A DNA stretch of 64,000 nucleotides, taken from NCBI RefSeq assembly GCF_024267655.1, contig NZ_CP100595.1, positions 310,001 to 374,000 of the forward strand, written 5' to 3'. The first letter of the stretch is position 1. Every line of letters begins with the position of its first letter. Made by a program: the position numbers and the translations under genes. The stretch comes from Arcobacter roscoffensis (lineage in GTDB: Bacteria; Campylobacterota; Campylobacteria; Campylobacterales; Arcobacteraceae). The notes under the pieces were generated by a model. That model did no database searches, was not told the origin of the DNA, and saw nothing but the letters and a program-made list of their open reading frames with translations. Shown in pieces: positions 6,121 through 24,375 of the stretch.

Positions 6121-6148
6121 ACTAATACTCCTTTATAAAAATAAAGGC

Positions 6149-6182
6149 ATCTTAGTAGAATTTAATCGTATTATTATCGCAG
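6149..6182 (-). promoter_or_regulatory. Tandem direct-repeat activator site plus -10 (site A, SDR-leuB)
   Basis: On the minus strand, TGCGAT-AATAA-TACGAT (6181-6165) is followed by TAAGAT at 6154-6149, starting 11 bases after the second half-site. The second half-site has one mismatch. It lies ~30 bp upstream of the SDR start and in the same orientation. Repeat period and hexamer placement match the four other sites in this window. Confidence 0.6.
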
Positions 6183-6187: not shown

Positions 6188-6946
6188 TTAAAATAGTTCT
6201 ATTTTATAACCTGAGTTATTTTGATTTACTATTAAATCTTTATGTATTTTACTTCTAAGCCTAAATAAAACAGACCTAAAAGCAGCATAGCCAGCTGGTT
6301 CATCTTGCCAAATTGCATACTCCATTTGTTCTTGCGATACAAATTGCCCAGCACTTCTACAAAGTAAATCAATAATCTTTTTCTCTTTAGAAGTTAGTTT
6401 TATAGGTTCATCTCCATAATATAAAACTTCAACTTCTTTATCATAAAGATAACCATATTTAAGTTGTATTGTTCTATGGTTTTGTTCTTTATTTAAAGAT
6501 AATTGATGCTCTAAAGTTTTGTTTATATTTTCAACAGCATCTAGTTTTTTGATTTTTTCATTATCTTCTTTTGCTTTACTAAGAGCCACTTCAATAGCTG
6601 CATGTAAGCTTTGTTTTTTATATGGTTTGATTATATATCCATATGCTAAAGTTTGAGAAGCTTCTTTTATAGTTTTTATTTCTGAATTAGCTGTAAGAAA
6701 AACCACAGGTACCTCAGGAATTGAGTTTTTTAACTCTTTAGCAAGTTCAATTCCTGTAGTTGGACCTTTTAGATAAATATCCATTAAAATCAAGTCAGGT
6801 TTAGCACCTTTTTCTAATAAAGCTATAGTTTTACATCTATTTGGAGCAACTCCACAAACCTTATATCCTAATTCATGTAGTGTTTCTTTTAGATTTAGTG
6901 CAATTATTGATTCATCCTCAACAATTAAAATTTCAATTTTGCTCAT
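6188..6946 (-). CDS. Response regulator with winged-helix DNA-binding domain
   Basis: This 252-residue transcription regulator has an N-terminal receiver domain (1-120) with acidic pocket EDES, phospho-acceptor Asp in LILMDIYLKG and the conserved Lys in YIIKPY. A charged linker of ~40 residues follows, probably coiled coil. An OmpR/PhoB-type winged helix occupies about 170-252 (LTSKEKKIIDLLCRSAG ... FRSVLFRLRSKIH ... GYKIELF). It directly follows the sensor kinase gene (2 nt apart), so the two form one operon. Winged-helix regulators of this class bind tandem direct repeats of about 11-bp period, exactly the pattern found at five promoters around it. It is therefore the best candidate activator of the phenol genes; target assignment is inferred. 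Confidence 0.88.
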   Translation of the reverse strand: MSKIEILIVEDESIIALNLKETLHELGYKVCGVAPNRCKTIALLEKGAKPDLILMDIYLKGPTTGIELAKELKNSIPEVPVVFLTANSEIKTIKEASQTLAYGYIIKPYKKQSLHAAIEVALSKAKEDNEKIKKLDAVENINKTLEHQLSLNKEQNHRTIQLKYGYLYDKEVEVLYYGDEPIKLTSKEKKIIDLLCRSAGQFVSQEQMEYAIWQDEPAGYAAFRSVLFRLRSKIHKDLIVNQNNSGYKIELF

Positions 6947-6948: not shown

Positions 6949-8244
6949 TTACTCTCCCTCATCCTTAGAAAAAATTATATTACACTCTAAGCCGTTATTA
7001 TTCTTAAACTCAATAGTTCCATCAAGTTGATCTTCAATAATTGAGTGGATAAGTTGCATTCCTATTGAATCACTTTTATATAGTGAGTCTATATCTTCAA
7101 GTCCATCTCCATTATCACGGATTTTTACATGTATAGTATCTTTGTTTTTTTTCATATGAATACAAAGTAAATTATCTCTATCTTCTTGAAAGGCATGTTT
7201 TAAAGAGTTTACACAAAGTTCATGTAAAACCATTCCTATTTGAATACACCTATTTGTAGAAAAACTTAAGTTATCAATATATACTTCTACATTTAAAGTC
7301 GTATTTTGAGAAATATATAACTCTTTTATATCATCAACAAGTCTTTTTATATAGTTTTTGAGATTTATATATGCAAGGTTTTCACCTAAATATAAAAACT
7401 CATGAACTAAAGCCATAGTATGAATTCTACTTCTACTTTGTTGTAAGATATAAATCATATCTCTATCTTTTGTTCGTCTCTCTTGCATGTTTAATAAGGA
7501 AGATATTATCTCCATATTGTTTTTTACCCTATGATGAATCTCTTTTAGTAATATATCTTTTTCTTCAACTGACTTTTGTAATTCTTGATTCATTTTAGTG
7601 ATTTTTGTTCTGTATTCTTGTCTTTGTGTCATATCTCTTGAAAAAGCACAAATATATTCATTTCCATTATGTGTAAAGCCATGACCTGAAACTTCCACAG
7701 GGAAAATTGTTCCATCTTTTCTAATTTGTGTAGTTTCTAATCTCCAATTTTTATGATGGTAGATATTATACATACACTCTTTTGCAGTTTCCCTATCAAA
7801 ATTTGGGTCCATATCTTCTAAATACATGTGATTTAAGAATTCATCTTTACTTCTTCCTATCATTTTACAAGCAGCTTCATTTACATAAATGAATTTCGCA
7901 TCTAATGTAAACCAGTATATAGCATCAATAGAGTTGTTCAATGCAAACTCATAAGGAACAAGCCTTTCTTTATCTTTATCTTTTAACTCTTTGTATGAAG
8001 CCTCAATTCTTGAAACAACTTTTTGCATATGATTTAGCATGATAAATAAAATTATTCCAGTTGCAATTAAAAATAAAATTCCAAAAGTTAAAGGCCCTTC
8101 CTTACTTAAAGAATGATACTTTGAAAACTCACTTACAAGTCTATCAATAAACAAAATACCAACAGCTCCTATTAGTATATATGTTAATGAAAACTTTGTT
8201 GGTATGGATTTATTATTTAAAATATAGTTCTTAACTCTTCCCAT
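6949..8244 (-). CDS. PAS-domain sensor histidine kinase, HisKA_2 type
   Basis: About 431 residues. Two membrane helices lie near the N-terminus and are separated by only ~15 residues, so ligand sensing is more likely in the membrane or in the cytoplasmic PAS domain (NSIDAIYWFTLDAKFIYVNEAACKMIG...). The kinase core is of the HisKA_2 kind: HHRVKNNMEI with the phospho-accepting His, then the ATPase motifs HELCVNSLKHAF, RDNGDGLE and IGMQLI. I chose the ATG at 8244 because two TATAAT sequences on this strand (8262-8257, 8278-8273) lie between it and an upstream GTG at 8298; starting at the GTG would add 18 residues. It is divergent from the phenol hydroxylase operon and presumably senses phenol, an intermediate or a metabolic state. 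Confidence 0.85.
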   Translation of the reverse strand: MGRVKNYILNNKSIPTKFSLTYILIGAVGILFIDRLVSEFSKYHSLSKEGPLTFGILFLIATGIILFIMLNHMQKVVSRIEASYKELKDKDKERLVPYEFALNNSIDAIYWFTLDAKFIYVNEAACKMIGRSKDEFLNHMYLEDMDPNFDRETAKECMYNIYHHKNWRLETTQIRKDGTIFPVEVSGHGFTHNGNEYICAFSRDMTQRQEYRTKITKMNQELQKSVEEKDILLKEIHHRVKNNMEIISSLLNMQERRTKDRDMIYILQQSRSRIHTMALVHEFLYLGENLAYINLKNYIKRLVDDIKELYISQNTTLNVEVYIDNLSFSTNRCIQIGMVLHELCVNSLKHAFQEDRDNLLCIHMKKNKDTIHVKIRDNGDGLEDIDSLYKSDSIGMQLIHSIIEDQLDGTIEFKNNNGLECNIIFSKDEGE

Positions 8245-8304
8245 TTTACTGCTCTTATTATAGATTTGAAAAATTATATCATAAATAAAAATATTCACTA
8301 ATAA

Positions 8305-9638: not shown

Positions 9639-9646
9639 GAGAAAGA

Positions 9647-9916: not shown

Positions 9917-9927
9917 GAGAAAATATT

Positions 9928-11448
9928 ATGACTATGAGTACACAAAAAAGAAAAAAACGTCTAAATATGAAAGACAAATATAAGTATATGACAAGACTTG
10001 GTTGGGAAACTACATATCAAGATATGGATGATGTTTTCCCTGAAGATAAATTTGAGGGTATAAAAATTCATGATTGGGAAGCTTGGGAAGATCCATTTAG
10101 AATGACAATGGATGCTTATTGGAAATACCAAGGTGAAAAAGATAAGAAACTATATGTAATTATTGATGCTTTTGCTCAAAATAATGGACAAAAAAATATT
10201 TCAGATGCAAGATATGTATCAGCATTAAAACTGTTTTTAACAGGTGTTTCACCTTTAGAATATCAAGCACATAGAGGTTTTGCAAATATTGCAAGAGCTT
10301 TTAGAGGTGATGGTCCAAGAGTTGCATGTCAAATGCAAGCAATTGATGAGTTAAGACATGTTCAAACACAAATTCATACTTTAAGCCACTATAACAAATA
10401 CTTTAATGGTTTCTCTGAGTGGGCACATTGGCATGATAATGTATGGTATTTATCTGTTCCTAAATCATTCTTTGATGATGCAAGAGCAGCAGGACCTTTT
10501 GAGTTTATTATTGCTATTGGATTCTCATTTGAGTATGTATTAACAAATCTTTTATTTGTACCATTTATGAGTGGTGCTGCTTATAATGGAGATATGGCAA
10601 CAGTTACATTTGGATTCTCAGCTCAAAGTGATGAGGCAAGACATATGACTTTAGGTTTACAAGCTATCAAGTTCTTATTAGAGCAAGACCCTGCAAATGT
10701 TCCTATTGTTCAAAAGTGGATTGATAAGTGGACTTGGAGAGGTTATAAAGTTTTAGGACTAGTATCTGCAATGATGGATTATATGTTACCTGATTCACCA
10801 CAGTCTTGGAAGGAAGCTTGGGAGTTATATTTTGAGCAAAATACAGTTGCATTATTTAAAGATTTAGAAAGATATGGAATTACAGTTCCAGATTGTGCTG
10901 CAACAATAAAAGCTGAAAAAGATCATATTTCTCATCAAGTTTGGATGACATTATATACTCATAATGCAGCAGCACCTTTCCATACGTGGATTCCAGATGA
11001 GAAAAAAATGGATTGGTTAAGTGAAAAGTATCCTGAGACTTTCGATAAATATTACAGACCAGTTTATGAACACTGGAATAAGTTAGAAAAAGAAGGTAAG
11101 AGATACTATTCTGAAATGCTTCCTCAGTTATGTCAAACTTGTCAATTACCAATGTTAGCAACAGAAGTTGAAAAAGGTGAACCAACACAAATTGCCCATA
11201 GACATACTATGTACAATAATGAGAGATTCCATTTCTGTTCAGATCATTGTCAAGATATTTTTGAAAACGAACCTGAAAAGTATATTCAATCTTGGTTACC
11301 AGTTCATCAAATCTTCCAAGGAAACTGTGGAGGTGCAACACTTCCAGAAGTACTTAAATGGTATAAGGTTGAATTTGGACAAGATAATCTTGATTATGTA
11401 GGTTCTCAGGATCAAAAAATGTGGAAAGAATGGAAGGGAGAAGCATAA
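9928..11448 (+). CDS. dmpN: Phenol hydroxylase P3 oxygenase large subunit (DmpN)
   Basis: This 506-residue catalytic subunit holds the carboxylate-bridged di-iron centre that hydroxylates phenol to catechol. Both Glu-x-x-His motifs are visible: DELRH at about 140-144 and DEARH at about 235-240. The C-terminus has a YHS-type zinc/metal knuckle (CQTCQLPM ... FCSDHC) as in DmpN and TouA. I used the ATG at 9928, seven bases after AGGAGA; a TTG at 9904 inside dmpM is unlikely. Its stop overlaps the dmpO start (TAATG). All iron ligands expected by the motif are present, so the enzyme looks functional. Confidence 0.95.
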   Translation: MTMSTQKRKKRLNMKDKYKYMTRLGWETTYQDMDDVFPEDKFEGIKIHDWEAWEDPFRMTMDAYWKYQGEKDKKLYVIIDAFAQNNGQKNISDARYVSALKLFLTGVSPLEYQAHRGFANIARAFRGDGPRVACQMQAIDELRHVQTQIHTLSHYNKYFNGFSEWAHWHDNVWYLSVPKSFFDDARAAGPFEFIIAIGFSFEYVLTNLLFVPFMSGAAYNGDMATVTFGFSAQSDEARHMTLGLQAIKFLLEQDPANVPIVQKWIDKWTWRGYKVLGLVSAMMDYMLPDSPQSWKEAWELYFEQNTVALFKDLERYGITVPDCAATIKAEKDHISHQVWMTLYTHNAAAPFHTWIPDEKKMDWLSEKYPETFDKYYRPVYEHWNKLEKEGKRYYSEMLPQLCQTCQLPMLATEVEKGEPTQIAHRHTMYNNERFHFCSDHCQDIFENEPEKYIQSWLPVHQIFQGNCGGATLPEVLKWYKVEFGQDNLDYVGSQDQKMWKEWKGEA

Positions 11449-11810
11449 TGGCAATCGTAAGTAAAGGTGAATATCCAGTAATTATGATGGATAGTGTAGA
11501 TAAGTTTCATGGTAACCAATTAGTATATGTAGGTTGGGATAAACATAAGTTAATCAATTCAGCGATGGCTTTTCCTTTACCACCACAAATGCCTTTTAAG
11601 GCATTAGTGCATGAAGTAATGCCAGGTTGTTATAAAGATCATCCAGATTTTGAAAAAGTAGTTTGGGATGATTCTGTTATTTGGAGATTAAACGGTGAAG
11701 AGTTTACTCCTGATTTTGAAAAATCTCTTGAAGATAATGGAATTGATCATAAATCATTAGTTAGATTTGAAACACCAAATCTAACAGGAATTAACGGAGT
11801 AGGAATGTGA
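11448..11810 (+). CDS. dmpO: Phenol hydroxylase subunit P4 (DmpO)
   Basis: This 120-residue protein matches the phenol hydroxylase P4/DmpO family, a small subunit of the oxygenase complex with an FHGNQLVYVGWDKHKLINSAMAFP-like core. The ATG overlaps the dmpN stop by one base and follows AAGGGAGA; an upstream GTG at 11421 would run into dmpN coding sequence. The downstream gene begins with a GTG whose last bases form this gene's TGA. Coupled translation through the operon is therefore expected. Confidence 0.9.
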   Translation: MAIVSKGEYPVIMMDSVDKFHGNQLVYVGWDKHKLINSAMAFPLPPQMPFKALVHEVMPGCYKDHPDFEKVVWDDSVIWRLNGEEFTPDFEKSLEDNGIDHKSLVRFETPNLTGINGVGM

Positions 11811-12865
11811 GTTATCAAGTAGAAATAGAACCAACAGGAGATGTAGTAGAAGTTCAAGATGGTCAAACTATTCTTGATGCTGCATTAAGACAGGGGGTAT
11901 ATATTCCCCATGCGTGCTCTCATGGTTTATGTGGTACTTGTAAGGTAGAGATATTAGAAGGTGAAGTTGACTACGGTGCAGCTTCTCCTTTTGCCCTTAT
12001 GGATATGGAAAAAGATGAGGGAAAATGTCTTGCTTGTACTGCAACACCAATGGAAGACTGTGCTATAGAAGCTGATATAGATGAAGATCCAGATGCTAAG
12101 TCAATACCTGTAAAAGATTTTATGGGAACAGTTGTTGAGGTAAAGGATTTAACACCTAGAATAAAAGGTATTTTTATAGAATTAGATGAAGAGATTGAGT
12201 TTCAAGCAGGTCAATATGTACAATATCATGTACCAGGATTTGAAGAACCAAGAGCATTTTCTTTATGTAACTCTTCAAATGATAAAAAAATTGTAGAGTT
12301 AAATATTTCTTTAGTTCCAGATGGAGAAGCAACTCCATGGATTCATAAAAATGTAAAAGTAGGTGCAAGAAGAAAAGTATCAGGACCTTATGGAAGATTT
12401 TTTGTAAGAGAATCTGCTCAAAAACCTATGATTTTCTTTGCAGGTGGTTCAGGTCTTTCTAGTCCAAAATCTATGATTTTGGAGCAGCTTGAAAATGGAA
12501 GTAAACAAGAAATAACACTTTTTCATGGTGCTAGAAATGAAGAAGAGTTATATTATGCAGATTTATTTAGAGACTTAGAGCAAAAGCATGAGAACTTTAC
12601 ATATGTTCCTGTTTTATCCGATGAAGATACTCCTTCTTGGGAAGGAAAAAAAGGTTTTGTAAATGATGCTGCAAAAGAAGTTTTTGAAAATGATTTCTCT
12701 GGAAAAAAAGCATATCTTTGTGGACCTCCACCTATGATAGATGCTTGTATTACAACACTTATGAGAGGAAGACTTTACGAAAAAGATATTTATACTGAAA
12801 AGTTCTTCTCAAAAGCTGATCTAAATGCTGAGAATCAGCGTTCCCCTTTATTTAAATCAATTTAA
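11807..12865 (+). CDS. dmpP: Phenol hydroxylase P5 reductase (DmpP)
   Basis: This 352-residue flavo-iron-sulfur reductase passes electrons from NAD(P)H to the DmpN di-iron site. A plant-type [2Fe-2S] domain occupies 1-95 with Cys37, Cys42, Cys45 and Cys77. The FAD domain carries RAFSL (149-153), and the NAD domain carries FFAGGSGLSSPKS and the terminal CGPPPMIDA. Start is GTG with a 4-nt overlap (GTGA) with dmpO. Length and domain order match DmpP. This is the last gene of the first operon, and a strong terminator follows. Confidence 0.95.
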   Translation: MSYQVEIEPTGDVVEVQDGQTILDAALRQGVYIPHACSHGLCGTCKVEILEGEVDYGAASPFALMDMEKDEGKCLACTATPMEDCAIEADIDEDPDAKSIPVKDFMGTVVEVKDLTPRIKGIFIELDEEIEFQAGQYVQYHVPGFEEPRAFSLCNSSNDKKIVELNISLVPDGEATPWIHKNVKVGARRKVSGPYGRFFVRESAQKPMIFFAGGSGLSSPKSMILEQLENGSKQEITLFHGARNEEELYYADLFRDLEQKHENFTYVPVLSDEDTPSWEGKKGFVNDAAKEVFENDFSGKKAYLCGPPPMIDACITTLMRGRLYEKDIYTEKFFSKADLNAENQRSPLFKSI

Positions 12866-12872: not shown

Positions 12873-12901
12873 AAAAAGGTCTGTTTTACGGACCTTTTTT
12901 T
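12873..12901 (+). terminator. Rho-independent terminator after dmpP
   Basis: Hairpin AAAAAGGTCTG / CGGACCTTTTT (one G-T pair) with a short TTTTA loop and a long T tract, starting about 8 bases after the dmpP stop. It separates the hydroxylase operon from the lower-pathway operon, so each needs its own promoter. Confidence 0.85.
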
Positions 12902-13349: not shown

Positions 13350-14297
13350 ATGAGCGGTATTATGAGATTAGGTCATGTTGATATTAATGTATTAGATATT
13401 AATGAATCAAGAGACTATTATGAAAATATTATAGGTATGGAAGTTACAAGAGAAGACTCTGATGGAACACTTTATTTAAAGTGCTGGGATGAATGGGATA
13501 AATACAGTCTTATTTTAAGACCTAGTGAAGAAGCAACATATAATAAGGTTGCGTATAAAGTAGAAAAAGATTCTGATATAGATGATTTTAAAGAAAAAAT
13601 CGAAAAATATGGAATTCAAACAGAGATTTTAGAAGCTGGAATTATTCCTGAATGTGGAAGGGTATTAAAGTTTATATCTCCAAGTGAGCATGAATTTAAT
13701 TTATATGCTGAAAAAACATTTGTAGGTAAAAAAGTAGGTCATACTAATCCTGCCCCTTGGCCAATTGAGGGAAAGGGTATCAAAGCTCACTGGATTGATC
13801 ATATTTTATTAATGACTCAAGGTCCTGAAAAATTAATGGAAGCTACTAAGTTTTTTGAAGATGTATTTGATATGAAATTAGCAGAGCAAGTATGTGTAGG
13901 ACCTGAGGGCTCAGTTCAGGCTGCAACATGGCTAAGTGCTGGAAATACTCCTCATGATTTAGCTTTTGTTGCTGGAGCAGAAACTGGTATGCATCATTTT
14001 GCATTTTTCTTAGATGGTTGGAACGACATTTTAAGGTCAGCAGATGTTATGGCTATGAATAATGTAAAGTTAGATGTTACTCCTCAAAGACATGGTATTA
14101 CAAGAGGTGAGACTATTTATTTCTTTGACCCATCAGGACATAGACTTGAGACATTTGCAGGACTTGGTTATGCAGTTTGTAAAGATATGCCAACAGTTAC
14201 TTGGACAGAAGATGAACTATGGAGAGGTATTTTCTATCATACAGGGCAAGAAAATGGTGCATTTACAACTGCATATACATTATCAGCTTATAAATAA
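13350..14297 (+). CDS. dmpB: Catechol 2,3-dioxygenase (XylE/DmpB)
   Basis: This 315-residue extradiol dioxygenase cleaves catechol to 2-hydroxymuconic semialdehyde. It has two vicinal-oxygen-chelate domains. The Fe(II) ligands are visible in the C-terminal domain: His151 (AHWIDH), His215/216 (MHHFAFF) and Glu267 (HRLETFAG), and the Tyr/His-rich motif GETIYFFDPSGHR is intact. Length and order place it in the XylE/DmpB (I.2.A) group. It has an AGGAGAAAG ribosome site and follows the ferredoxin by 17 nt. Confidence 0.95.
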   Translation: MSGIMRLGHVDINVLDINESRDYYENIIGMEVTREDSDGTLYLKCWDEWDKYSLILRPSEEATYNKVAYKVEKDSDIDDFKEKIEKYGIQTEILEAGIIPECGRVLKFISPSEHEFNLYAEKTFVGKKVGHTNPAPWPIEGKGIKAHWIDHILLMTQGPEKLMEATKFFEDVFDMKLAEQVCVGPEGSVQAATWLSAGNTPHDLAFVAGAETGMHHFAFFLDGWNDILRSADVMAMNNVKLDVTPQRHGITRGETIYFFDPSGHRLETFAGLGYAVCKDMPTVTWTEDELWRGIFYHTGQENGAFTTAYTLSAYK

Positions 14298-14319
14298 AAG
14301 AAAAATTTAGGAATTTAAA

Positions 14320-14748
14320 ATGTTGACAAAAACATCAAAAGATTTGACAAGTCAAACAGCTTTAAAGCTTTGTGAGTTATCAATTGAAAAGGCTAATGAA
14401 TTAAATATAAAAATAAATGTAAGTGTTACAGATTCAAAAGGAATTGAACTTGCATTTATAAGAATGGATGATTCATTTATTCATTCAAGTCAAATAGCAA
14501 AAGATAAGGCTTACACAAGTGCAAGTTTTGGTTTTGATACAGATACATGGACACAAATTTTTAAAAGTGAAACTCATTTAGAACAAGGTTTTTCTAATCA
14601 AGATAGATTAATACCTTTTGGTGGAGGGCTTACTATCTTTGAAAATAAAGAAAAAGTAGGAGCTATTGGGGTTTCAGGTGGAACTGAACAAGAAGATATT
14701 ATTTGCGCAAAATATGCAATAGAAAGGTTAGGATTAAATAATGAATAA
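14320..14748 (+). CDS. GlcG/HbpS family protein
   Basis: This 142-residue protein of the GlcG/HbpS (DUF336) fold carries the typical VSVTDSKGIELAFIRMDD, AKDKAYTSASF and IPFGGGLTIF...VGAIGVSGGT motifs. Some members bind haem; others accompany catabolic operons with unclear roles. It sits between dmpB and dmpC and overlaps the dmpC start by 8 nt, so it is co-translated with the pathway. Similar small genes are found in some meta-cleavage clusters. Function here is not known; a protective or chaperone role towards the dioxygenase is only a guess. Confidence 0.8.
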   Translation: MLTKTSKDLTSQTALKLCELSIEKANELNIKINVSVTDSKGIELAFIRMDDSFIHSSQIAKDKAYTSASFGFDTDTWTQIFKSETHLEQGFSNQDRLIPFGGGLTIFENKEKVGAIGVSGGTEQEDIICAKYAIERLGLNNE

Positions 14749-16198
14749 AGTACAACACTATATTAACGGACAATTTTTAGATTCATCATGTGGGGATTTT
14801 TTTGACAATATCAACCCTATGAATGGACAGCTTTTATCAAAAGTAGCCCTAGGACGAGAAGATGAAGTAAATGCAGCAGTAGCAGCAGCTAAAGCAGCCC
14901 TTACTGGTGAATGGGGTCAAATGAAATTAAATGACAGAATTGCAATGATGTATGAAATTGCTGAGGAAATTGATAGAAGATTTGATGATTTTTTAGAAGC
15001 TGAATGTTTAGATACGGGTAAGCCTTATTCAATTGCAAGACATATTGATATTCCAAGAGGTGCTGCAAACTTTAAAGTATTTGCTGACACTATGAAAGCT
15101 GTTGCAGATGAAGCTTATAGAATGGATACGCCTGATGGGAAAATAGCAATGAACTATTCTATGAGAAAACCTAAAGGTGTTATTGGAGTTATTTCTCCTT
15201 GGAATTTACCATTACTTCTAATGACTTGGAAAGTTGGTCCTGCTATGGCTTGTGGAAATACTGTAGTTGTTAAACCATCACAAGTTACACCTACAACAAC
15301 ATCTTTACTTGGTGAAGTAATGAGTAAAGTAGGAGTTCCAGCAGGGGCATATAATGTTGTTCAAGGTAAAGGTTCAATTACTGGAAATTTACTAACAGCT
15401 CATAAAGATGTGGATGCTTTAACTTTTACAGGTGAGACAAAAACAGGTGAAATGATTATGAAAGCTTGTTCTAATGGTGTTAGAGATGTATCCTTAGAAC
15501 TTGGTGGGAAAAACCCAGCTATTGTTTTTGCTGATTGTGATATGGATAAGGCAATTCGTGAAACTACAAGATCATGTTTTGCTAATTCAGGACAAGTATG
15601 TTTAGGAACTGAAAGAGTTTATGTTCAAAGAGAAATTTTTGATGAATTTGTATCAAAACTAAAAGAATCAGCATTAAAACTAAAACTTGGAATTCACAAT
15701 GACGAATCAGTTGATATGGGACCAGTAGTAAGTGAAGCTCATAGAGATAAGGTATTAGAGTTTTATGACATAGCTAAAAAAGAGGGTGCAAATGTAATCT
15801 TAGGTGGTGGCGCTCCTAAAATGGAAGGTGATTTAGCAAATGGATTCTTTGTTGAACCTACTATTTGGACTGGACTTCCAGAAGATGCAACAGTTGTAAA
15901 ACAAGAAGTATTTGGACCTTGTTGTCATATCGCACCTTTTGATAGTGAAGAAGAAGTTATTAAAATGGCAAATGACACAGATTACGGACTAGCATCTACA
16001 ATTTTTACTGAAAATCTAGATAAAGCTCATAGAGTAGCTTCTCAAATTGACTCAGGAATTGTATGGATTAATTCATGGTTCTTAAGAGATTTAAGAACAC
16101 CATTTGGTGGAATGAAAGGTTCAGGAATTGGAAGAGAGGGTGGTCACCACTCATTAGAATTCTATACTGAACTTAAAAATGTATGTATAAAAATGTAA
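14741..16198 (+). CDS. dmpC: 2-Hydroxymuconic semialdehyde dehydrogenase (DmpC/XylG)
   Basis: This 485-residue NAD-dependent aldehyde dehydrogenase oxidises the ring-cleavage product to 4-oxalocrotonate, opening the oxalocrotonate branch. Visible active-site parts are PWNLP (Asn155), Lys in VVKPS, Glu253 in LELGG and the nucleophile Cys287 in GQVCLGT. Length and the terminal FGGMKGSGIGREGG motif are typical. Operon position next to the dioxygenase and hydratase fixes the substrate beyond the general family. The start overlaps the preceding gene. Confidence 0.92.
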   Translation: MNKVQHYINGQFLDSSCGDFFDNINPMNGQLLSKVALGREDEVNAAVAAAKAALTGEWGQMKLNDRIAMMYEIAEEIDRRFDDFLEAECLDTGKPYSIARHIDIPRGAANFKVFADTMKAVADEAYRMDTPDGKIAMNYSMRKPKGVIGVISPWNLPLLLMTWKVGPAMACGNTVVVKPSQVTPTTTSLLGEVMSKVGVPAGAYNVVQGKGSITGNLLTAHKDVDALTFTGETKTGEMIMKACSNGVRDVSLELGGKNPAIVFADCDMDKAIRETTRSCFANSGQVCLGTERVYVQREIFDEFVSKLKESALKLKLGIHNDESVDMGPVVSEAHRDKVLEFYDIAKKEGANVILGGGAPKMEGDLANGFFVEPTIWTGLPEDATVVKQEVFGPCCHIAPFDSEEEVIKMANDTDYGLASTIFTENLDKAHRVASQIDSGIVWINSWFLRDLRTPFGGMKGSGIGREGGHHSLEFYTELKNVCIKM

Positions 16199-16207
16199 GG
16201 GTATAAA

Positions 16208-17002
16208 ATGGCAATGACTCAAGAAAAAATTGAAAAATATGGAAATGAATTATATGAAGCCCTAAAAGGAAATCATACTATTGAGCCAATCTCAAATAGA
16301 GAACCTGATTCTACAATTGAAGATGCTTATGCAATTCAACATCACTTTTTAAAAAGAAGAATGGAAGATGATGGAAGTAAAATTATTGGTAAAAAGATTG
16401 GTGTTACATCAAAGGTTGTTATGGACATGTTAGGTGTTCATCAACCTGATTTTGGTTATCTTTTATCAGATATGATTTATTCAGATGGTGATGTGATTAA
16501 TGTTACAGATGGAATGATTCAACCAAAAGCAGAGGGTGAAATAGCCTTTGTTTTAAAAGAGGATTTATGTGGACCAGGAGTTACAGCTGCTGATGTAATT
16601 AAGGCAACAAAGTTTGTAATGCCTTGTTTTGAAATAGTTGATTCAAGAATAAAAGACTGGAAAATCAAAATCCAAGATACAGTTGCTGATAATGCCTCTT
16701 GTGGATATATAGTATTTGGAGGTCAGAGTGTCTCTCCTTTAGATGTGGATTTAACAACTTGTGGAATAACTTTAGAGAGAAATGGTGAGTTATTACATAC
16801 AGGATCAGGTGCAGCAGCTCTTGGTAGCCCTGTAAATGCAGTAGTTTGGCTTGCAAATAAACTTGGTGAGTTTGGTGTATCTCTAAAAGCAGGTGAAGTT
16901 ATACTATCAGGGGCTTTATGTGCAATGGTTGATATAAAACCAGGTGATAATATGACTGCAAGTATTGGTGGCGTTGGTTCTGCCTCAATCAGATTTGAAT
17001 AA
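16208..17002 (+). CDS. dmpE: 2-Oxopent-4-enoate hydratase (DmpE/XylJ)
   Basis: This 264-residue enzyme adds water to 2-hydroxypenta-2,4-dienoate to give 4-hydroxy-2-oxovalerate. It is told apart from its relative DmpH (18929-19717) by GKKIGVTSKVVMDMLGVHQ, PDFGYL and DSRIKDWKIKIQDTVADNASCG, which closely follow Pseudomonas DmpE. The metal-binding acidic residues of the fold (EGEIAF, Glu and Asp in the conserved block) are present. DmpE normally forms a complex with the decarboxylase DmpH, which is encoded two genes downstream. Confidence 0.93.
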   Translation: MAMTQEKIEKYGNELYEALKGNHTIEPISNREPDSTIEDAYAIQHHFLKRRMEDDGSKIIGKKIGVTSKVVMDMLGVHQPDFGYLLSDMIYSDGDVINVTDGMIQPKAEGEIAFVLKEDLCGPGVTAADVIKATKFVMPCFEIVDSRIKDWKIKIQDTVADNASCGYIVFGGQSVSPLDVDLTTCGITLERNGELLHTGSGAAALGSPVNAVVWLANKLGEFGVSLKAGEVILSGALCAMVDIKPGDNMTASIGGVGSASIRFE

Positions 17003-17014
17003 AAGGTAAATACA

Positions 17015-17899
17015 ATGGAAAAAATAAATTGTGCATTAATTGGGTCTGGAAATATTGGAACAGACCTAATGTATAAACTAAAAAGAAGTGAAATATTAAA
17101 TCCTTTATGGATGGTTGGTATTGACCCTGAGTCTGATGGTTTATTAAGAGCTAAAGAAGATGGTATGAAAACAACAGCCGAAGGTGTTGATGGATTACTT
17201 CCTTTTATTAAAGAAGATGGTGTAAAGATTGCATTTGATGCAACATCAGCTTATGTTCATGGTGAAAATAATAGAAAATTAGCGGAACTTGGAGTTCAAG
17301 TTATTGATTTAACTCCTGCTGCAATTGGACCATTTTGTGTGCCATCAGTTAATATGGAAGAGCTACTTGCTCAAAATACTCAAAATGTAAATATGGTTAC
17401 TTGTGGTGGGCAAGCTACTATTCCTATGATAGCAGCTGTATCAAAAGTTCAAGAAGTTGAATATGCAGAAATTGTAGCAACAGCAGCTTCTAAGTCAGCA
17501 GGTCCAGGAACTCGTGCTAATATTGATGAGTTTACTGAAACTACAAAACTTGGAATAGAGCAAGTAGGTGGTGCTAAAAAAGGTAAAGCAATTATTATTT
17601 TAAATCCTGCAGAACCACCTTTAATGATGAGAGATACAATTCATTGTTTAACAAGTGAAAAACCTGATGAAGAAGCTATTACTAAATCAATCCATGAAAT
17701 GGTTGAAACTATGCAAGAGTTTATTCCAGGGTATGTGTTAAAAAATGGACCAGTTTTTGATGGTAATAAAATCTCTATTTGGTTAGAAATTGAAGGTTTG
17801 GGGGATTATTTGCCTAAGTATGCAGGTAACCTAGACATTATTACAGCAGCTGCAACAAACATTGCAGAACAAATGGCTAAAAAGATTAAAGGAGCATAA
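17015..17899 (+). CDS. dmpF: Acetaldehyde dehydrogenase, acylating (DmpF)
   Basis: This 294-residue enzyme converts acetaldehyde, CoA and NAD+ to acetyl-CoA. The NAD site GSGNIGTDL is near the start, and the catalytic Cys130 is in VTCGGQAT. It works in a bifunctional complex with the aldolase DmpG, which channels the toxic acetaldehyde between sites; the two genes are adjacent with one base between stop and ATG. Length matches the family. Confidence 0.95.
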
Positions 17900-17900
17900 G

Positions 17901-18929
17901 ATGGATTTACAAGGTAAAAAAATAAAAATTCATGATATGTCTTTAAGAGATGGAATGCACTCAATTAGACATCAATTTTCACTTGAAGAGATGACAAATA
18001 TGTCAACAGCAATGGATAAAGCAGGTGTTCCTTTTATTGAAGTTACTCATGGAGATGGACTTGGTGGTTCATCACTTAACTATGGATGGGGAAGACATAC
18101 TGATGAAGAATGGTTAGATGCAGTAGTGCCAAATATGACACAAGCTAAAATCTCAGCTCTTTTACTTCCAGGAATCGGTATTGTAAAAGATTTAGAAAAA
18201 GCTGTTGATCATGGTATTTCTATGGTTAGAGTAGCAACTCATTGTACGGAAGCTGATTGTTCAGCCCAACATATAAAAGCTGCTAAATCAATGGGACTTG
18301 ATACAGTTGGATTTTTAATGATGGCTCATATGGTTGATGAAAAAAGATTAGTTGAGGAAGCTTCTAAAATGGTTTCTTATGGAGCTACAACTATTTATGC
18401 AACTGATTCAGCTGGCTACTTACTTCCTGATATGGTAAGTTCTAGAATTAAAGCATTAAAAGCAGAGTTTGGTGATGAGATTGAACTTGGTTTCCACGGA
18501 CATAATAACTTATCAATGGGTGTTGCAAACTCTTTAGCAGCTATTGAAGCAGGTGCTACACGAATTGATGCTTCACTTGCAGGTTTTGGAGCAGGTTCTG
18601 GTAACACTGCAACTGAAGTATTAGTAGCTGTTTGTAATAGAATGGGTGTTGATACGGGTGTTAATCTTGAAGCTATTGAAGATGCAGCTGAGGATATTGC
18701 ACTTCCTATTATGGGTAAACCTACAAGAATTTCAAGGGATTCTATTACTTTAGGTTATGCAGGTGTTTATTCATCATTTTTACTATTTGCTAGACGAGCA
18801 GAAGAAAAGTATGGAATAGATGCAAGATCTTTACTTGTTGAATTAGGTAGAAGAGGAATGATTGGTGGTCAAGAAGATATGATTGATGATTGTGCTATGG
18901 AATTAGCTAAACAAAAAGGATTATTATAA
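17901..18929 (+). CDS. dmpG: 4-Hydroxy-2-oxovalerate aldolase (DmpG)
   Basis: This 342-residue class II (metal-dependent) aldolase splits 4-hydroxy-2-oxovalerate into pyruvate and acetaldehyde. The catalytic region MSLRDGMHS (Arg15, Asp16, His20) and the metal-binding GFHGHNN (about residues 196-202) are intact. I chose the ATG at 17901, after a GGAG site at the end of dmpF, rather than an in-frame ATG at 17862 inside dmpF. The C-terminal region after ~290 is the communication domain that pairs with DmpF. The stop overlaps the dmpH ATG by one base. Confidence 0.95.
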
Positions 18930-19717
18930 TGGCATTAGATAAAGCAACAATAGAAAAACTTGCAAAGCATTGTGAAGATGCTGAATTGCAAGCTTATGAG
19001 ATCACAAAAATTACTGATGATTACCCAGAAATGACATATGAAGATGCATATGACATTCAATGGACTGCAAGAGCTGCAAAAGAAGCAAGAGGTCATAAAA
19101 TAGTTGGTATGAAAATGGGGCTTACTTCACAGGCTAAAATGAAACAAATGGGAGTTCCAAATCCTTGTTATGGATATCTTGCTGATTACTTTGCCTATGG
19201 TGATGGTGCAGAAATACCATATGACGAATTAATTCACCCAAAAGTTGAAGCTGAAATTGCTTTTGTATTAAAAGATGATTTAAGTGGACCTGGATGTCAT
19301 ATAGATGATGTATTAGCTGCTACTGATTTTGTAATGCCTGCTGTTGAGATTATTGATTCAAGATATAAGGATTTTAAATTTGATTTAAAGTCTGTAATTG
19401 CTGATAACTCTTCATCTTCTAGATATGTAAGTGGTGGTATGGCAAAAAAAGCTAATGAAGTTGATTTAAAAACTTTAGGTGTTGTAATGGAAATAAATGG
19501 TGAGGTTGTACAACTTGGAGCAGGAGCTGCAGTTCTTGGTCATCCAGCAACTGCTATTGCAATGCTTGCAAATATGATGAGTGAACGAGGTGAGGTTTTA
19601 AAGGCTGGGTCTTATATTTTAAGTGGAGCAATTACAGCTGCAACTACTGTTAATAAAGGTGATAATGTAACTGTTAAGTTTCAAGATTTAGGAACTTTAT
19701 CATTTAAATTTGTATAG
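18929..19717 (+). CDS. dmpH: 4-Oxalocrotonate decarboxylase (DmpH/XylI)
   Basis: This 262-residue paralogue of DmpE decarboxylates 2-oxohex-3-enedioate to 2-hydroxypenta-2,4-dienoate in the oxalocrotonate branch. Diagnostic segments include GHKIVGMKMGLTSQAKMKQMG, PHPKVEAEIAF-like LIHPKVEAEIAFVL and DSRYKDFKFDLKSVIADNSSSS, which fit DmpH rather than DmpE. It follows dmpG with a one-base overlap. A run of three hairpins then separates it from dmpI. Confidence 0.93.
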   Translation: MALDKATIEKLAKHCEDAELQAYEITKITDDYPEMTYEDAYDIQWTARAAKEARGHKIVGMKMGLTSQAKMKQMGVPNPCYGYLADYFAYGDGAEIPYDELIHPKVEAEIAFVLKDDLSGPGCHIDDVLAATDFVMPAVEIIDSRYKDFKFDLKSVIADNSSSSRYVSGGMAKKANEVDLKTLGVVMEINGEVVQLGAGAAVLGHPATAIAMLANMMSERGEVLKAGSYILSGAITAATTVNKGDNVTVKFQDLGTLSFKFV

Positions 19718-19723
19718 AAAATA

Positions 19724-19850
19724 AGAGCAACTTGTTGCTCTCTTTAGGGTTTGCTTCTTTAAAGATGGCTTTGCCATCTTGTTAAAAGAAGTTAAAAATG
19801 AAATGGTCCCTTTGTAAAGGTCCCCTTTAAAAAATGGTAATTTTTTAAAG
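19724..19850 (+). repeat. Three consecutive hairpins inside the lower-pathway operon
   Basis: The 167-bp gap between dmpH and dmpI holds three perfect inverted repeats in a row. These are AGAGCAAC/GTTGCTCT (19724-19741, 2-nt loop), AAGATGGC/GCCATCTT (19762-19780, 3-nt loop, extendable by an imperfect outer CTTCTTTAA/TTAAAAGAAG arm), and CTTTAAAAAAT/ATTTTTTAAAG (19825-19850, 4-nt loop). None ends in a strong T tract on the coding strand. They look more like RNA processing or stability structures, or weak attenuators, than a full terminator. Confidence 0.65.
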
Positions 19851-19884
19851 CACCTTTTGATGAGACATTAAAAAAGGAGCTTTT

Positions 19885-20076
19885 ATGCCAATAGCAACTA
19901 TAAATATAATCGAAGGTAGATCTGATGAGCAAAAAGAGAAGCTTATAGAAAAAGTAACTCAAGCAATTCACGAAGCTATAGATGCACCAAAACAAAATGT
20001 TAGAGTGATTTTAAATGAAATGCCAAAACAACATTTTGGAATAGGTGGTGAGAGTGTAAAAAAGATGGGGCGATAA
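19885..20076 (+). CDS. dmpI: 4-Oxalocrotonate tautomerase (DmpI/XylH)
   Basis: This 63-residue enzyme converts the enol to the keto form of 4-oxalocrotonate. After Met removal the chain begins with catalytic Pro1; Arg11, Arg39 and Phe50 of the classical active site all fall in place. The overall sequence (PIATINIIEGRSDEQKEKL...) closely follows Pseudomonas 4-OT. It starts after an AAAGGAGC ribosome site. It is encoded downstream of the three-hairpin gap but upstream of dmpD, so it remains in the same direction and probably in the same unit. Confidence 0.95.
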   Translation: MPIATINIIEGRSDEQKEKLIEKVTQAIHEAIDAPKQNVRVILNEMPKQHFGIGGESVKKMGR

Positions 20077-20077
20077 A

Positions 20078-21085
20078 TTGTTAAAATTAAGTGTATTAGA
20101 TCAATCCCCAATTCATGATGGAAAAGAAGCAAAACAAGGTTTATTTGATACTATTGAATTAGCAAAATCTTGTGAAGACTTAGGTTATCATAGATATTTA
20201 TTAGCAGAGCATCATGATACACCTGGTTATGCTTCTTGTGCCCCAGAGATTATGGTTAGTGCAGTTGCTTCAAATACTTCAAAAATTAGAGTTGGTAGTG
20301 GTGGCGTTATGCTAAATCATTATAGCTCTTTTAAAGTAGCAGAGATTTTTAATACACTTAATGCTTTATATGATAATAGAATTGATTTAGGTGTAGGAAG
20401 AGCTAGTGGCGGAAGTTTTTTAGCTACTAGAGCTTTGCATTCAAATCAAAGTGACTACTCAAAAAAGGTTTATGAAACAATAAACTATTTAGATAAAACA
20501 GTTCCTTTAAATTCTTCATTTAGTGGATTGACTTTATCCCCAATTCAAGAAAATAGTACTCCTGTGTATTTACTAGGTTCTAGTAATTCAAGTTCTTCTT
20601 TAGCAGGAGTTCTAGGTGCAGGTTTTATCTTAGCATTATTTATAGGAACACATGAAAGAAATTCTTCAATAATACAAGAGTATAAAAAAACATTTAATAA
20701 AAGTCATAATTTTAAAAAGCCAAAAGCTAGTATTGCAGTTGCTTGTATTGTTGCAAAGGATAAAGAAGAAGCAAGATATATAGCAAGTACACATACTTAT
20801 TGGAAGTTACAAGCTTTCAAACAGCCTACAAGGGATGATTTACAAAGCCCACAAGCAGTTCAAGAACTAATAAAAGATTTAAGCCTTGAAGATAGACAAT
20901 ATTATGAAGAAACAATGAATACCATGATATTAGGTAATGCAAAAGAGTGTAAAGAAGAAATAGAGAAATTAGCTTTAGAGTATGAAGTTGATGAGGTAAT
21001 TATTGTGAATGTGACTTATTCTTTTGAGCATAGAAAAAGATCATATGAACTTTTAGCAAAAGAGTTTGATTTAAATAAGGAGTAA
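20078..21085 (+). CDS. Luciferase-like (LLM) flavin-dependent oxidoreductase
   Basis: This 335-residue member of the bacterial luciferase-like family starts at a TTG one base after the dmpI stop, behind GATGGGG. Features are the N-terminal LDQSPIHDG, AEHHDTPGYASCAPE, and a central LGVGRASGG loop, as in the MsnO8/YhbW-type subgroup with FMN-binding character. Substrate unknown. It is embedded between dmpI and dmpD, which is unusual for a canonical phenol pathway. It might oxidise a side product or protect against aldehyde intermediates, but there is no direct evidence. Confidence 0.82.
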   Translation: MLKLSVLDQSPIHDGKEAKQGLFDTIELAKSCEDLGYHRYLLAEHHDTPGYASCAPEIMVSAVASNTSKIRVGSGGVMLNHYSSFKVAEIFNTLNALYDNRIDLGVGRASGGSFLATRALHSNQSDYSKKVYETINYLDKTVPLNSSFSGLTLSPIQENSTPVYLLGSSNSSSSLAGVLGAGFILALFIGTHERNSSIIQEYKKTFNKSHNFKKPKASIAVACIVAKDKEEARYIASTHTYWKLQAFKQPTRDDLQSPQAVQELIKDLSLEDRQYYEETMNTMILGNAKECKEEIEKLALEYEVDEVIIVNVTYSFEHRKRSYELLAKEFDLNKE

Positions 21086-21087
21086 AA

Positions 21088-21906
21088 ATGTCAAATCCAG
21101 AAATAGCAAATAGTATTAATACGGGTAATTATAATACTAACTATCATGATTTAGGTGAGGGTGAAGTAGTTTTATTTATCCATGGTTCAGGACCAGGGGT
21201 TTCAGCCTTTGCAAACTGGAGATTAGCAATGCCCCAGCTTGCAAAAAACTTTAGAGTAATAGCTCCTGATATGGTAGGCTTTGGTTATAGTGATAGACCT
21301 AATGATATTACTTATAGTATGGATGAATGGGTAGAGCAAGCTATTAATCTAATGGATGCTTTAAAAATAGAAAAATTTAATATTGTAGGTAACTCTTTTG
21401 GTGGAGGCTTGGCTTTATGTTTAGCTATAAAATATCCAAATAGAGTGAATAAAATGGTATTAATGGGTGCAATGGGTGTTGATTTTGAAATAACAGCTGG
21501 ACTTGATCAAGCATGGGGATATACTCCAAGTATAGAAAACATGAAAGCTTTATTAGATACATTTGCTTATAGTAGAGAACTAGTAACAGATGATTTAGCA
21601 AAAATGAGATATGAAGCTAGTATTAGACCTGGATTTCAAGAATCATTTAGTTCAATGTTTCCCGAACCAAGACAAAATAGTGTAAAATCAATGGCAAGTG
21701 ATGAAAAAGAAATAGCTTCTATTGATAAAGATGTTTTAATTATCCATGGTAGAGATGATAAGGTGATTCCTTTTGAAAACTCAATTAGATTGCATAATCT
21801 AATAGAAAAGTCACAATTACATGGTTTTGGACAATGTGGACATTGGTCTCAAATAGAACATAAGGATAGATTTAATAAACTACTTGAAGATTTCTTTTTA
21901 GAATAG
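21088..21906 (+). CDS. dmpD: 2-Hydroxymuconic semialdehyde hydrolase (DmpD/XylF)
   Basis: This 272-residue alpha/beta-hydrolase splits 2-hydroxymuconic semialdehyde to formate and 2-hydroxypenta-2,4-dienoate. The oxyanion motif HGSGPGVSAFANW, nucleophile in GNSFGG, Asp in GRDDKVIP and His in GHWSQIEH are all visible. In the canonical order it sits near dmpC; here it has moved to the end of the operon. With dmpC, I and H present too, both branches are encoded. Confidence 0.93.
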   Translation: MSNPEIANSINTGNYNTNYHDLGEGEVVLFIHGSGPGVSAFANWRLAMPQLAKNFRVIAPDMVGFGYSDRPNDITYSMDEWVEQAINLMDALKIEKFNIVGNSFGGGLALCLAIKYPNRVNKMVLMGAMGVDFEITAGLDQAWGYTPSIENMKALLDTFAYSRELVTDDLAKMRYEASIRPGFQESFSSMFPEPRQNSVKSMASDEKEIASIDKDVLIIHGRDDKVIPFENSIRLHNLIEKSQLHGFGQCGHWSQIEHKDRFNKLLEDFFLE

Positions 21907-21914
21907 GAGTAGAT

Positions 21915-22853
21915 ATGAACTTTTTAATTTTAGGTACAGGTGGAATAGGCGCATTTTACGGAGCAAGATTATTAAGTTCATCAAATAAAGTTACATTTGT
22001 CGCAAGGAGTTTGCACCTAGAAGCTATAAGAAAAAATGGCTTACAAGTGCAACATCCTGATTTTTCCTTCTCTCAAAAAGTAGATGTATCACAACTACAA
22101 GATATAGACTTCACTTCTTTAAATATTGATGTAATAATTCTAACTACAAAATCAAATACAACTAGAATAATAGCAAAAGAGCTTTCTTTTAAACTAGATA
22201 CCTTAAAAGATAAACCATATATTTTATCTTTACAAAATGGTGTTGAAAATGAAAAAATCTTATGTGAATATTTTAAAAAAGATAAAATAATAGGCGGACT
22301 AACTAGAAAAATAGGTGCTCATATTATAAAACCCTCTTTTATAGAAGCCACAGGTAAAGTAGAAACTCTAATAGGTTCAATTTCCCAAACTAAAGAGAAC
22401 ACAGCTTTTTTAAAGAAATTAAATAAAAGTATAAATGAAGCTGGTATTTTATGTGAAGTTGTTGATGATATAAATAAAGAGCTTTGGAAGAAACTTATTA
22501 TAAACAATGGAGTAAATGCTATTTGTGCTTTACTCAAAATTAAAACTGGTGTTTTAATGAATAATGAAAAACTTTCATCTTTAGTTTATGGTCTAATGAA
22601 AGAGACTCAAAGTGCTGCAAAAGCTTGTAGTATAGAAATTACTAACAATGAACTAAGTCAAATGTATGAGTTAATTAAAAATTTTGACTCAATTAAACCC
22701 TCAATGCTAGTTGATAGAGAGTTTAAAAGAGAACTAGAAATAGATGAAATTTGTAATGTAGTAATAAACTATAATAAAATGCAAAATATAGATAGCCCTT
22801 ATACTAAATCAATCTCTTATTTACTTGATTTTGTGTATAAAAATGAAAAATAA
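21915..22853 (+). CDS. Ketopantoate reductase family protein, copy 2
   Basis: This 312-residue paralogue of the 2334-3284 protein has Rossmann motif GTGGIGAFYG and the shared ELWKKLIINNGVNAICALL block with the catalytic Lys. It is the last gene of the lower-pathway operon, 8 nt after dmpD, so it is expected to be induced with the pathway. A housekeeping pantothenate role is unlikely in that position; reduction of a 2-oxo acid such as a pathway intermediate is more plausible. The two copies flank the catabolic block on either side. Confidence 0.75.
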   Translation: MNFLILGTGGIGAFYGARLLSSSNKVTFVARSLHLEAIRKNGLQVQHPDFSFSQKVDVSQLQDIDFTSLNIDVIILTTKSNTTRIIAKELSFKLDTLKDKPYILSLQNGVENEKILCEYFKKDKIIGGLTRKIGAHIIKPSFIEATGKVETLIGSISQTKENTAFLKKLNKSINEAGILCEVVDDINKELWKKLIINNGVNAICALLKIKTGVLMNNEKLSSLVYGLMKETQSAAKACSIEITNNELSQMYELIKNFDSIKPSMLVDREFKRELEIDEICNVVINYNKMQNIDSPYTKSISYLLDFVYKNEK

Positions 22854-22860: not shown

Positions 22861-22893
22861 TGCGATTAATCTGCGATAAGTTTTTATTACTAT
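22861..22893 (+). promoter_or_regulatory. Tandem direct-repeat activator site plus -10 (site D)
   Basis: TGCGAT-TAATC-TGCGAT (22861-22877), followed by TACTAT at 22888-22893, starting 11 bases after the second half-site. It begins 8 bases after the stop of the preceding gene. No annotated gene starts in the next 300 bases, so it points to a non-coding transcript or a long porin leader. Confidence 0.6.
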
Positions 22894-22899
22894 TACTTT

Positions 22900-23087
22900 T
22901 GAAATAGGTGCAAGTGATATATTTACTTTTGAAGTTGTAGTACCTATTATGTTTTTTGCTTTTAAACTTATAAATGCTTTCTTTTTATCACTTACAACTT
23001 CAAAGCGACTTATATGAAGTTTCTCCTTTCATAAAAAAATGATTTAGACATAAATACGGCATTTTATATGCCGTATGCCCTTATTTT
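22900..23087 (+). ncRNA. Candidate structured small RNA under site D
   Basis: The predicted start is ~7 bases after the TACTAT hexamer. The interval holds a perfect 12-bp inverted repeat, TTTGAAGTTGTA (22928-22939) and TACAACTTCAAA (22993-23004). It ends with a 9-bp hairpin ATACGGCAT/ATGCCGTAT (23054-23076) followed by a T-rich stretch that could terminate it. There is no good ORF on this strand. Transcription is inferred only. This interval is most of the 355-bp gap between copy 2 of the reductase and the porin. Confidence 0.35.
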
Positions 23088-23100
23088 AACTTATAAAAAG

Positions 23101-23133
23101 TGCGATAATTTTGCGATTTAATTTAATTAAAAT
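23101..23133 (+). promoter_or_regulatory. Tandem direct-repeat activator site plus -10 (site E, porin)
   Basis: TGCGAT-AATTT-TGCGAT (23101-23117), identical in repeat core and spacer to site B, followed by TAAAAT at 23128-23133. The porin ATG is ~75 bases downstream. This ties the porin to the phenol operons by sequence. Confidence 0.65.
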
Positions 23134-23161
23134 CTTTAATGTAGAGTACCAACTATATATT

Positions 23162-23208
23162 GCGCGTGTATGGTAGTCTAGAAAATTTCGAAATCTTGGA
23201 GAGATAAA
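23162..23208 (+). promoter_or_regulatory. Porin 5' leader with ATTTCGAAAT palindrome
   Basis: A GC-rich GCGCG patch, then GGTA, then the palindrome ATTTCGAAAT (23185-23194), then GGAGAG before the ATG. The second porin (59616-60662) has the same series in its leader. This suggests a shared post-transcriptional element or sRNA target. Confidence 0.45.
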
Positions 23209-24375
23209 ATGAAAAAAATTACAAAATTAAGTATGGCTGCATGTTTACTACTTAGTAGTTCAGTTTTTGCTGATACTTTAGAAGAAGCATTTTCTAATTC
23301 AAAAGTAAAGGGTGAATTAAAAGCACAATACTTTGATAAGCAAAGTCCAGTAGATGGTAAAAACGATAATATTTTTGTTACAGGTGGAAATATAAATATC
23401 GTAACTGGTTCTTTTTATGGCTTAAATGCAGGAGTAACATTTCAAGCTTCACATGTAGTAGATAGATCTATTGAGGCAACAAATGATTTTGCTAGCACAA
23501 TGGATGCATCAGGTGCAGTAATGTCTGAATCATATCTAGCATATACTTTAGATAATACAACACTAAAAGTTGGTAGACAGTATATTACAACTCCTTTAGT
23601 TGCAGGTTCTGGTTCTAGAATGATTAAAGAGTCATTTGAAGGTGTAACTTTAACAAATACAGATTTAGCTGATACAACTATAGTTGCTGCATATGTAAAT
23701 AAGTTCCAAGGAAGAACAGATGGTGCTGAAAACCCAGGTGAGTTTGATAAGTATGAAGATGGAGCATATACTTTATATGTGAAAAACAACTCTATTGAAA
23801 ACTTGACACTACAAGGTCAGTATTTAGATGTAGATGGAAGTACTGCAAATACTGATAAAAATGCTTTATATATAGATGGTGTTTATGATGCTAGTATTGC
23901 AAAAGTTTCACTACAAGTAATTGATTCTACAAATGATAGTAATGCTAAGTCTGATGGTAGATTATATGGGGCTAAAGTTAGTGGAAATATAGGAATGGTT
24001 AATTTAACTGGATTATATACAAGTACTACTGATGATGGTGATGTATTTGTTGGTGCTGGAAATGGTGCTGATTCTGGTTATACAGCTTTACCAATTCATG
24101 GTGGAAGTGTAACATATAAAGCAAACACAGATACTATGGTTGCAGTTGCTGCTACACAATTAGCAGGAGCTACTGTTGTTGCATATATAGGACAAGTAAA
24201 ATCACCTGATAATAACAACTTAGGTGGTTCAGATAAGATTGATGCATATGGTGGATTTGTACAGTATGCCTTTAATAAAAACTTTTCAACAAAAGTTATG
24301 TATGAAAACGCTTCATTTAGCGATACTTTAAAAGATTCAAATGCTTTAAGAGTTTATACTTCATATAAATTTTAG
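23209..24375 (+). CDS. Outer-membrane porin, co-regulated with phenol genes
   Basis: This 388-residue protein has a signal peptide (MKKITKLSMAACLLLSSSVFA) and a C-terminus rich in alternating hydrophobic strands ending YTSYKF, typical of an outer-membrane beta-barrel. Strands such as LKVGRQYITTPL and the short acidic loops resemble OprD-like or Campylobacterota major porins. It has its own site-E promoter, and a strong terminator follows. Its place at the end of the phenol region suggests a role in aromatic uptake, but phenol crosses membranes readily, so the true substrate is uncertain. Confidence 0.8.
   Translation: MKKITKLSMAACLLLSSSVFADTLEEAFSNSKVKGELKAQYFDKQSPVDGKNDNIFVTGGNINIVTGSFYGLNAGVTFQASHVVDRSIEATNDFASTMDASGAVMSESYLAYTLDNTTLKVGRQYITTPLVAGSGSRMIKESFEGVTLTNTDLADTTIVAAYVNKFQGRTDGAENPGEFDKYEDGAYTLYVKNNSIENLTLQGQYLDVDGSTANTDKNALYIDGVYDASIAKVSLQVIDSTNDSNAKSDGRLYGAKVSGNIGMVNLTGLYTSTTDDGDVFVGAGNGADSGYTALPIHGGSVTYKANTDTMVAVAATQLAGATVVAYIGQVKSPDNNNLGGSDKIDAYGGFVQYAFNKNFSTKVMYENASFSDTLKDSNALRVYTSYKF

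Follow-up and report, generated by a model that had tools for sequence, protein, structure and literature searches.

What does a perfect activator site do when no gene starts behind it? The window (the whole 64,000-nucleotide stretch of Arcobacter roscoffensis DNA that was analysed) carries a phenol-degradation locus in which one such site, D, lies between the lower operon and a porin gene that has its own site, E (Table 1). The initial annotation had proposed that D drives an independently regulated small RNA. We find support for an independent, regulon-controlled non-coding RNA because the promoter pattern is rare, the unit recurs in two further genomes and stems are kept over loops, but the other part of the claim, release as a free RNA, is called into question by a weak terminator. 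The reading that we favour, and to which we give a little better than an even chance, is that site D is a phenol-regulon promoter driving a structured non-coding RNA of ~175-190 nt, which would likely damp the translation of co-induced messages.

Table 1. Features of the phenol-degradation locus, in window coordinates
Feature	Position	Strand	Remark
Candidate regulator: Response_reg + Trans_reg_C (OmpR-type C-terminal domain) response regulator	6188..6946	-	role inferred from adjacency
PAS + HisKA_2 sensor kinase, candidate partner of the response regulator	6949..8298	-	
Multicomponent phenol hydroxylase genes	8643-12865		
Best predicted target: GAAGGGAGAAGC, able to pair over 12 bp with the P3 segment; covers the Shine-Dalgarno (SD) sequence of the DmpO-like phenol hydroxylase gene	11433..11444	+	prediction
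Meta-cleavage pathway genes; last two: alpha/beta hydrolase and ApbA-like reductase	13350-22853		
Site D, TGCGATTAATCTGCGAT: TGCGAT-N5-TGCGAT direct repeat, predicted activator site	22861..22877	+	exact match; kept in G034 and G139
-10-like TACTAT, 10 nt past site D	22888..22893	+	TAATAT in G034 and G139
Predicted structured non-coding RNA	22900..23088	+	putative 5' end ~22900; 3' end uncertain, ~23080-23088
P1 5' strand, AATAGGTGC	22903..22911	+	
P2 5' arm, TTTGAAGTTGTA (inverted repeat)	22928..22939	+	
P1 3' strand, GTACCTATT	22940..22948	+	
P2 3' arm, TACAACTTCAAA	22993..23004	+	
P3 hairpin TATGAAG-TTTCTCC-TTTCATA, anti-Shine-Dalgarno loop	23013..23033	+	
9-bp hairpin ATACGGCAT/ATGCCGTAT, candidate weak terminator	23054..23076	+	other sequence, same place in G034 and G139
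Site E with -10 TAAAAT, predicted porin promoter	23101..23133	+	
OprD-type porin (porin 1)	23209..24375	+	ATG 23209
Second porin (porin 2), Campylo_MOMP type	59616-60662	-	

Site D does have the complete activator geometry that had been ascribed to it, i.e. an exact direct repeat with a 5-nt spacer and a -10 element 10 nt further on, and so possesses all elements of a phenol-regulon promoter; the exact repeat is also present at sites A (8306) and E (23101). The pattern TGCGAT-N5-TGCGAT-N10-TANNNT, with one mismatch or none, occurs at five places in the whole 3.15 Mb genome, all of them inside the window (6181 on the minus strand, 8306, 12934, 22861 and 23101; three exact, two with one mismatch). 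Allowing two mismatches adds four places, a chance-like number, and the reversed control pattern gives three in the whole genome. We conclude from the sequence that site D is a genuine fifth phenol-regulon promoter. It was also correct that no gene starts within the next 300 bases, the porin start lying ~315 nt downstream with nothing plausible earlier. In the phenol clusters of ~15 relatives, where weak-scoring scan matches without a gene behind them were counted as chance, the 10-nt spacing between site and -10 element was found throughout and nearly all sites lie at most ~140 nt from a gene start, typically 16-140 nt. Two cases depart from this, D in each of its three genomes and a G018 site (L194:10609); a site in G034 (L053:657) is followed by a small gene starting at 734 and is hence not distant.

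The G018 exception (L194:10609-10740) is an orphan regulon site with a second site 130 nt later. Its promoter and first bases (ATAGGTA) are D-like and are followed by ACTCTT...AGGGAGT, six T and the second site, and it may be related to the D unit, in shorter form, or else be an attenuated leader. The one-mismatch site at 6181 precedes a short-chain dehydrogenase gene (window 5326-6181, minus strand) left of the regulator, to which the regulon may extend; a similar site stands ahead of an ORF of 264-265 aa in G136, G032 and G045.

The genes for the response regulator and the PAS/HisKA_2 kinase sit left of the hydroxylase genes, and this two-component pair would be the natural candidate for the activator because it is adjacent and because the direct-repeat site has an 11-nt period. 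The neighbourhood likewise suggests phenol as the inducing signal. Two 'intergenic' intervals of the window (9639-9903 and 19718-20077), with ~82% identity to G034 across 208-268 bases, probably hold small genes under the ORF length cut-off, encoding the hydroxylase component DmpM and a tautomerase.

Relatives of the window genome (G000) were reached by a porin search across 104 family genomes and a DNA search, and in two of them, G034 and G139 of the Poseidonibacter group, the order of site D, -10 element, structured interval, hairpin, site E and porin is the same. This unit was found in none of ~100 other Arcobacteraceae genomes, 21 with phenol hydroxylase among these. Since phenol hydroxylase is present in 24 of the 104 family genomes and the unit in three, the RNA appears to accompany the regulon only occasionally. 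In G000, G034 and G139, a model of the 5' core gave E values of 1.6e-9 to 5e-14; the remaining family genomes stayed at noise level. No further homologues rose above noise among 399 sampled genomes of the order, a porin-based scan of public contigs gave no additional copies of the unit, and no second copy of the RNA was found within the same genome. A match in G217 (E 0.007 over the 399 genomes) and an exact core motif inside a coding gene of G133 were set aside as chance. D is preceded by the ApbA-like reductase gene in G000 and G139 and by the hydrolase gene in G034, which is without the reductase, so D travels as its own unit. Rightwards from the P1 3' strand, G034 and G139 are identical at ~58-60 of 60 bases, and leftwards they have strongly diverged; the switch is abrupt and falls within the P1 3' strand (L053 ~15090 in G034, L054 ~11170 in G139), a mosaic that places a recombination break within this unit.

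For the predicted transcript (22900-23088) the folding energy is -40.9 kcal/mol, whereas shuffles give -25.5 +/- 3.5 (z -4.4, with 0/200 as low), and the transcripts of the three genomes have fold z of -4.7, -3.8 and -2.5. A good fold is obtained for the reverse complement too (z -3.4), so that the strand is fixed by the promoter and not by folding. The 12-bp inverted repeat reported earlier is indeed perfect; such a repeat was reached in 0/300 dinucleotide shuffles, yet in ~3% of the window's 189-nt stretches. Common to the three genomes are P1 (TAGGTRC with GTACCTA), P2 (TGAAGTTGT with ACAACTTCA) and P3, a hairpin with a UUCUCC loop. Because the P2 5' arm lies in the P1 loop, P1 and P2 can form together only as a pseudoknot and otherwise alternate, and the predicted interlock is likely an H-type pseudoknot or an alternative pairing. 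The window's P3 reads UAUGAAG-UUUCUCC-UUUCAUA, that of the relatives AUUCGUG-UUCUCCUU-UACGAAU (as DNA, ATTCGTG-TTCTCCTT-TACGAAT); the hairpin follows the P2 3' arm in the window and precedes it in G034 and G139, so it has either moved or arisen twice. At -3.0 kcal/mol the window's P3 is weak, and in the full fold it competes with another small hairpin. Between the two lineages, the stems of P3 and of the terminator are wholly different in sequence, with pairing kept in both.

In the 5' part, the three genome pairs differ at 0/22, 2/22 and 2/22 stem positions and at 10/27, 13/27 and 17/27 loop positions (Fisher p 0.001, 0.005 and 0.0001), values that speak for constraint on blocks rather than proving pairing, because the stems were defined on these same sequences. 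Together with the fold z, this conservation of stems over loops points to a selected secondary structure. One P2 pair is compensatory (C-G in the relatives, U-A in the window) and one P1 pair changes between A-U and G-U. Covariation in related genomes, which had been put forward as a check, is not significant (168/500 shuffles reach the count for three sequences from two lineages), because there are three sequences only and the 3' halves of G034 and G139 are almost identical.

The interval also lacks coding potential, as a 22-codon ORF from ATG 22949 is absent in G034 and G139 and neither strand of the D-E interval has a Pfam match, a 74-codon open stretch on the minus strand included. A protein-coding reading of either strand was rejected for want of a conserved reading frame and of a Pfam match, and a reverse-strand SD-like AAAGGAG, the reverse complement of the P3 loop, was discarded as a gene start for want of a start codon at a suitable distance. 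The families of Rfam 15 gave no match anywhere in the window at gathering score. Hfq (PF17209) was not found in the genome, the control genomes being positive, and an Hfq-dependent small RNA is thus not what this genome would make. Promoter identity and rarity, conservation, structure and lack of coding were all computed, and at the sequence level there is good support for a promoter of the regulon that drives a structured non-coding RNA under selection, independent in that it has its own promoter and no gene directly downstream.

Where this RNA would end is a matter of the hairpin before E. Its 9-bp stem is exact, as described, but the T-rich run said to follow it is weak: behind the stem the sequence reads GCCCTTATTTT, and the d'Aubenton-Carafa-type terminator score of the hairpin is -45 (-12.6 in reverse), against +27 to about -10 for the window's best terminators. 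The hydroxylase operon ends in a clean intrinsic terminator (window 12878-12894, GGTCTGTTTTACGGACC then seven T), which offers an in-genome standard for judging the D hairpin. The counterpart in G034 and G139 (TACAGTACAAAA/TTTTGTACTGTA) lies at the same place before E, has no sequence in common with the window's and reaches a moderate forward score of -21.7.

Since forward termination is weak in G000, read-through into the porin is plausible, and D might be a distal second promoter of this gene, with the interval as a ~310 nt 5' leader affecting the stability or translation of the porin message. This explanation, which we consider rather unlikely, gains from the presence of the unit before this porin in all three genomes, and such a leader would have regulatory potential, as the E promoter spacer is predicted to mask the porin SD in read-through. 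Predicted SD accessibility is 0.09 in D read-through vs 0.55 in the E transcript in G000, and 0.01 vs 0.56 in G034; upstream shuffles give values as low in 12/100 cases for the window and 1/100 for G034, so we treat the occlusion as a lead only. In the read-through RNA, the E promoter region (23118-23140) is predicted to pair with the porin SD (23195-23206), most strongly in G034 and G139 (UACUUUUCC with GGGAGAGUA). The porin, however, already has its own perfect site E, the read-through transcripts are predicted to be poorly translated, and a hairpin has stayed in its position ahead of E despite a complete change of sequence. Of the two outputs, a free small RNA appears the likelier.

Type I 3'-UTR-associated RNAs are transcribed from a promoter of their own that immediately follows the final gene of an operon, and they share the operon's terminator. 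By analogy, the interval could be the 3' UTR and terminator of the lower operon, protecting the 3' end of the messenger, with D only adding transcripts, and indeed D starts 8 nt past the stop codon of ApbA, and the stretch from the lower operon to the porin holds no better terminator. We nevertheless regard this as quite improbable, since the P1 5' strand begins at the predicted D start and a perfect activator site, here the regulon's own, would be needless for a 3'-UTR function; furthermore, in G034 the unit persists behind another gene. Very improbable, in our view, is a remnant, i.e. that D and E once flanked a gene whose loss left the promoter orphaned and the sequence in decay. The minus-strand open stretch without Pfam match would suit such a history, as would the part of the D-E interval that is unalignable between the two lineages, but decay fits poorly with stems conserved over loops, with the lack of a conserved reading frame and with the recurrence of the geneless D-E unit in two genera.

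If the RNA is free, the P3 loop offers a way to predict what it might act on. The target test used the P3 segment or loop only, whole-RNA duplex energies being uninformative, and background start sites came from 20 sampled stretches each of G000 and G034. The start of the DmpO-like gene scores -19.0 in G000 and beats all 349 sampled start regions, the best of which reaches -16.9. The proposal that the RNA acts on the two porins receives no special support, porin 1 ranking ~18th (~5th percentile) and porin 2 ~65th (~19th percentile) against the 349 sampled start sites of G000; it is the DmpO-like gene, through the anti-SD loop of P3, that tops the ranking. The common palindromic leader of the porins is real, with ATTTCGAAAT before the SD in both (window 23186 and 60677); GCGCG lies upstream in both, and the palindrome is also present in the G034 porin leader. 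In G034, the DmpO-like gene is the best of 18 cluster genes and 28th of ~343 (27/343 sampled regions as good or better). The GGAARGGAGAAGC motif over the DmpO SD was seen in G000 and G034 only, among junctions that could be read, and is indicative only; the anti-SD loop was noticed post hoc, and such loops fit many ribosome-binding sites. The DmpO-like target is therefore convincing only in the window genome, where it is a lead.

For the working of a free RNA, we infer the identity of the regulator, the inducer, the transcript ends, the targets and the direction of the effect. Induction of the pathway, probably via the adjacent two-component system, would lead to the RNA being made alongside the enzymes and the porin. 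Its 5' part would fold into P1 and P2, probably interlocked as a pseudoknot that would aid stability in a cell without Hfq, and the later hairpin would expose a UUCUCC loop able to cover Shine-Dalgarno sequences. Most likely, the RNA would damp the translation of selected messages induced with it, the one for the DmpO-like hydroxylase subunit being the best candidate, so that it would act as an incoherent feed-forward brake and probably fine-tune the phenol pathway. A bolder version, which as a whole we hold to be improbable, is that of a new RNA family, pseudoknotted, Hfq-independent and induced with the phenol regulon by an OmpR-type regulator, whose anti-SD loop throttles the hydroxylase and whose read-through form is a self-silenced porin message, one promoter serving both roles.

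In the literature searched, we found neither a small RNA driven by a dedicated regulator of aromatic degradation nor an Arcobacter small RNA. With Hfq missing from the genome, an RNA tied to phenol would offer a clean, inducible model of RNA control in which the usual chaperone plays no part, and would show that pathways for toxic substrates can have a post-transcriptional brake built in. One near likeness is NikS (HPnc4160) of Helicobacter pylori, which is also without Hfq: this small RNA of an Hfq-less member of the Campylobacterota is under the control of NikR and pairs with the leaders of several mRNAs, including those of outer-membrane proteins, blocking their translation (PMC8322730). 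The D RNA would likewise be under a specific transcription regulator in Hfq-less Campylobacterota, but NikS is repressed by NikR whereas the D RNA is predicted to be activated, within a catabolic regulon, and its pairing is predicted; we claim no sequence resemblance. RepG, a trans-acting RNA from the same Hfq-less relative, has its target site in an mRNA 5' leader, as predicted for the D RNA, and pairs with a homopolymeric G-repeat (PMC8322730, PMC8295292); in contrast, the D RNA has a UUCUCC loop and no long C/U tract, and would cover ordinary SD sequences. In Staphylococcus aureus, RsaA and other RNAs with C-rich loops bind Shine-Dalgarno sequences through an unpaired C-rich loop (PMC3961350). 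RsaA belongs to another phylum, is under sigma-B control and has no homology to the D RNA, which shows a single such loop, with the motif UUCUCC.
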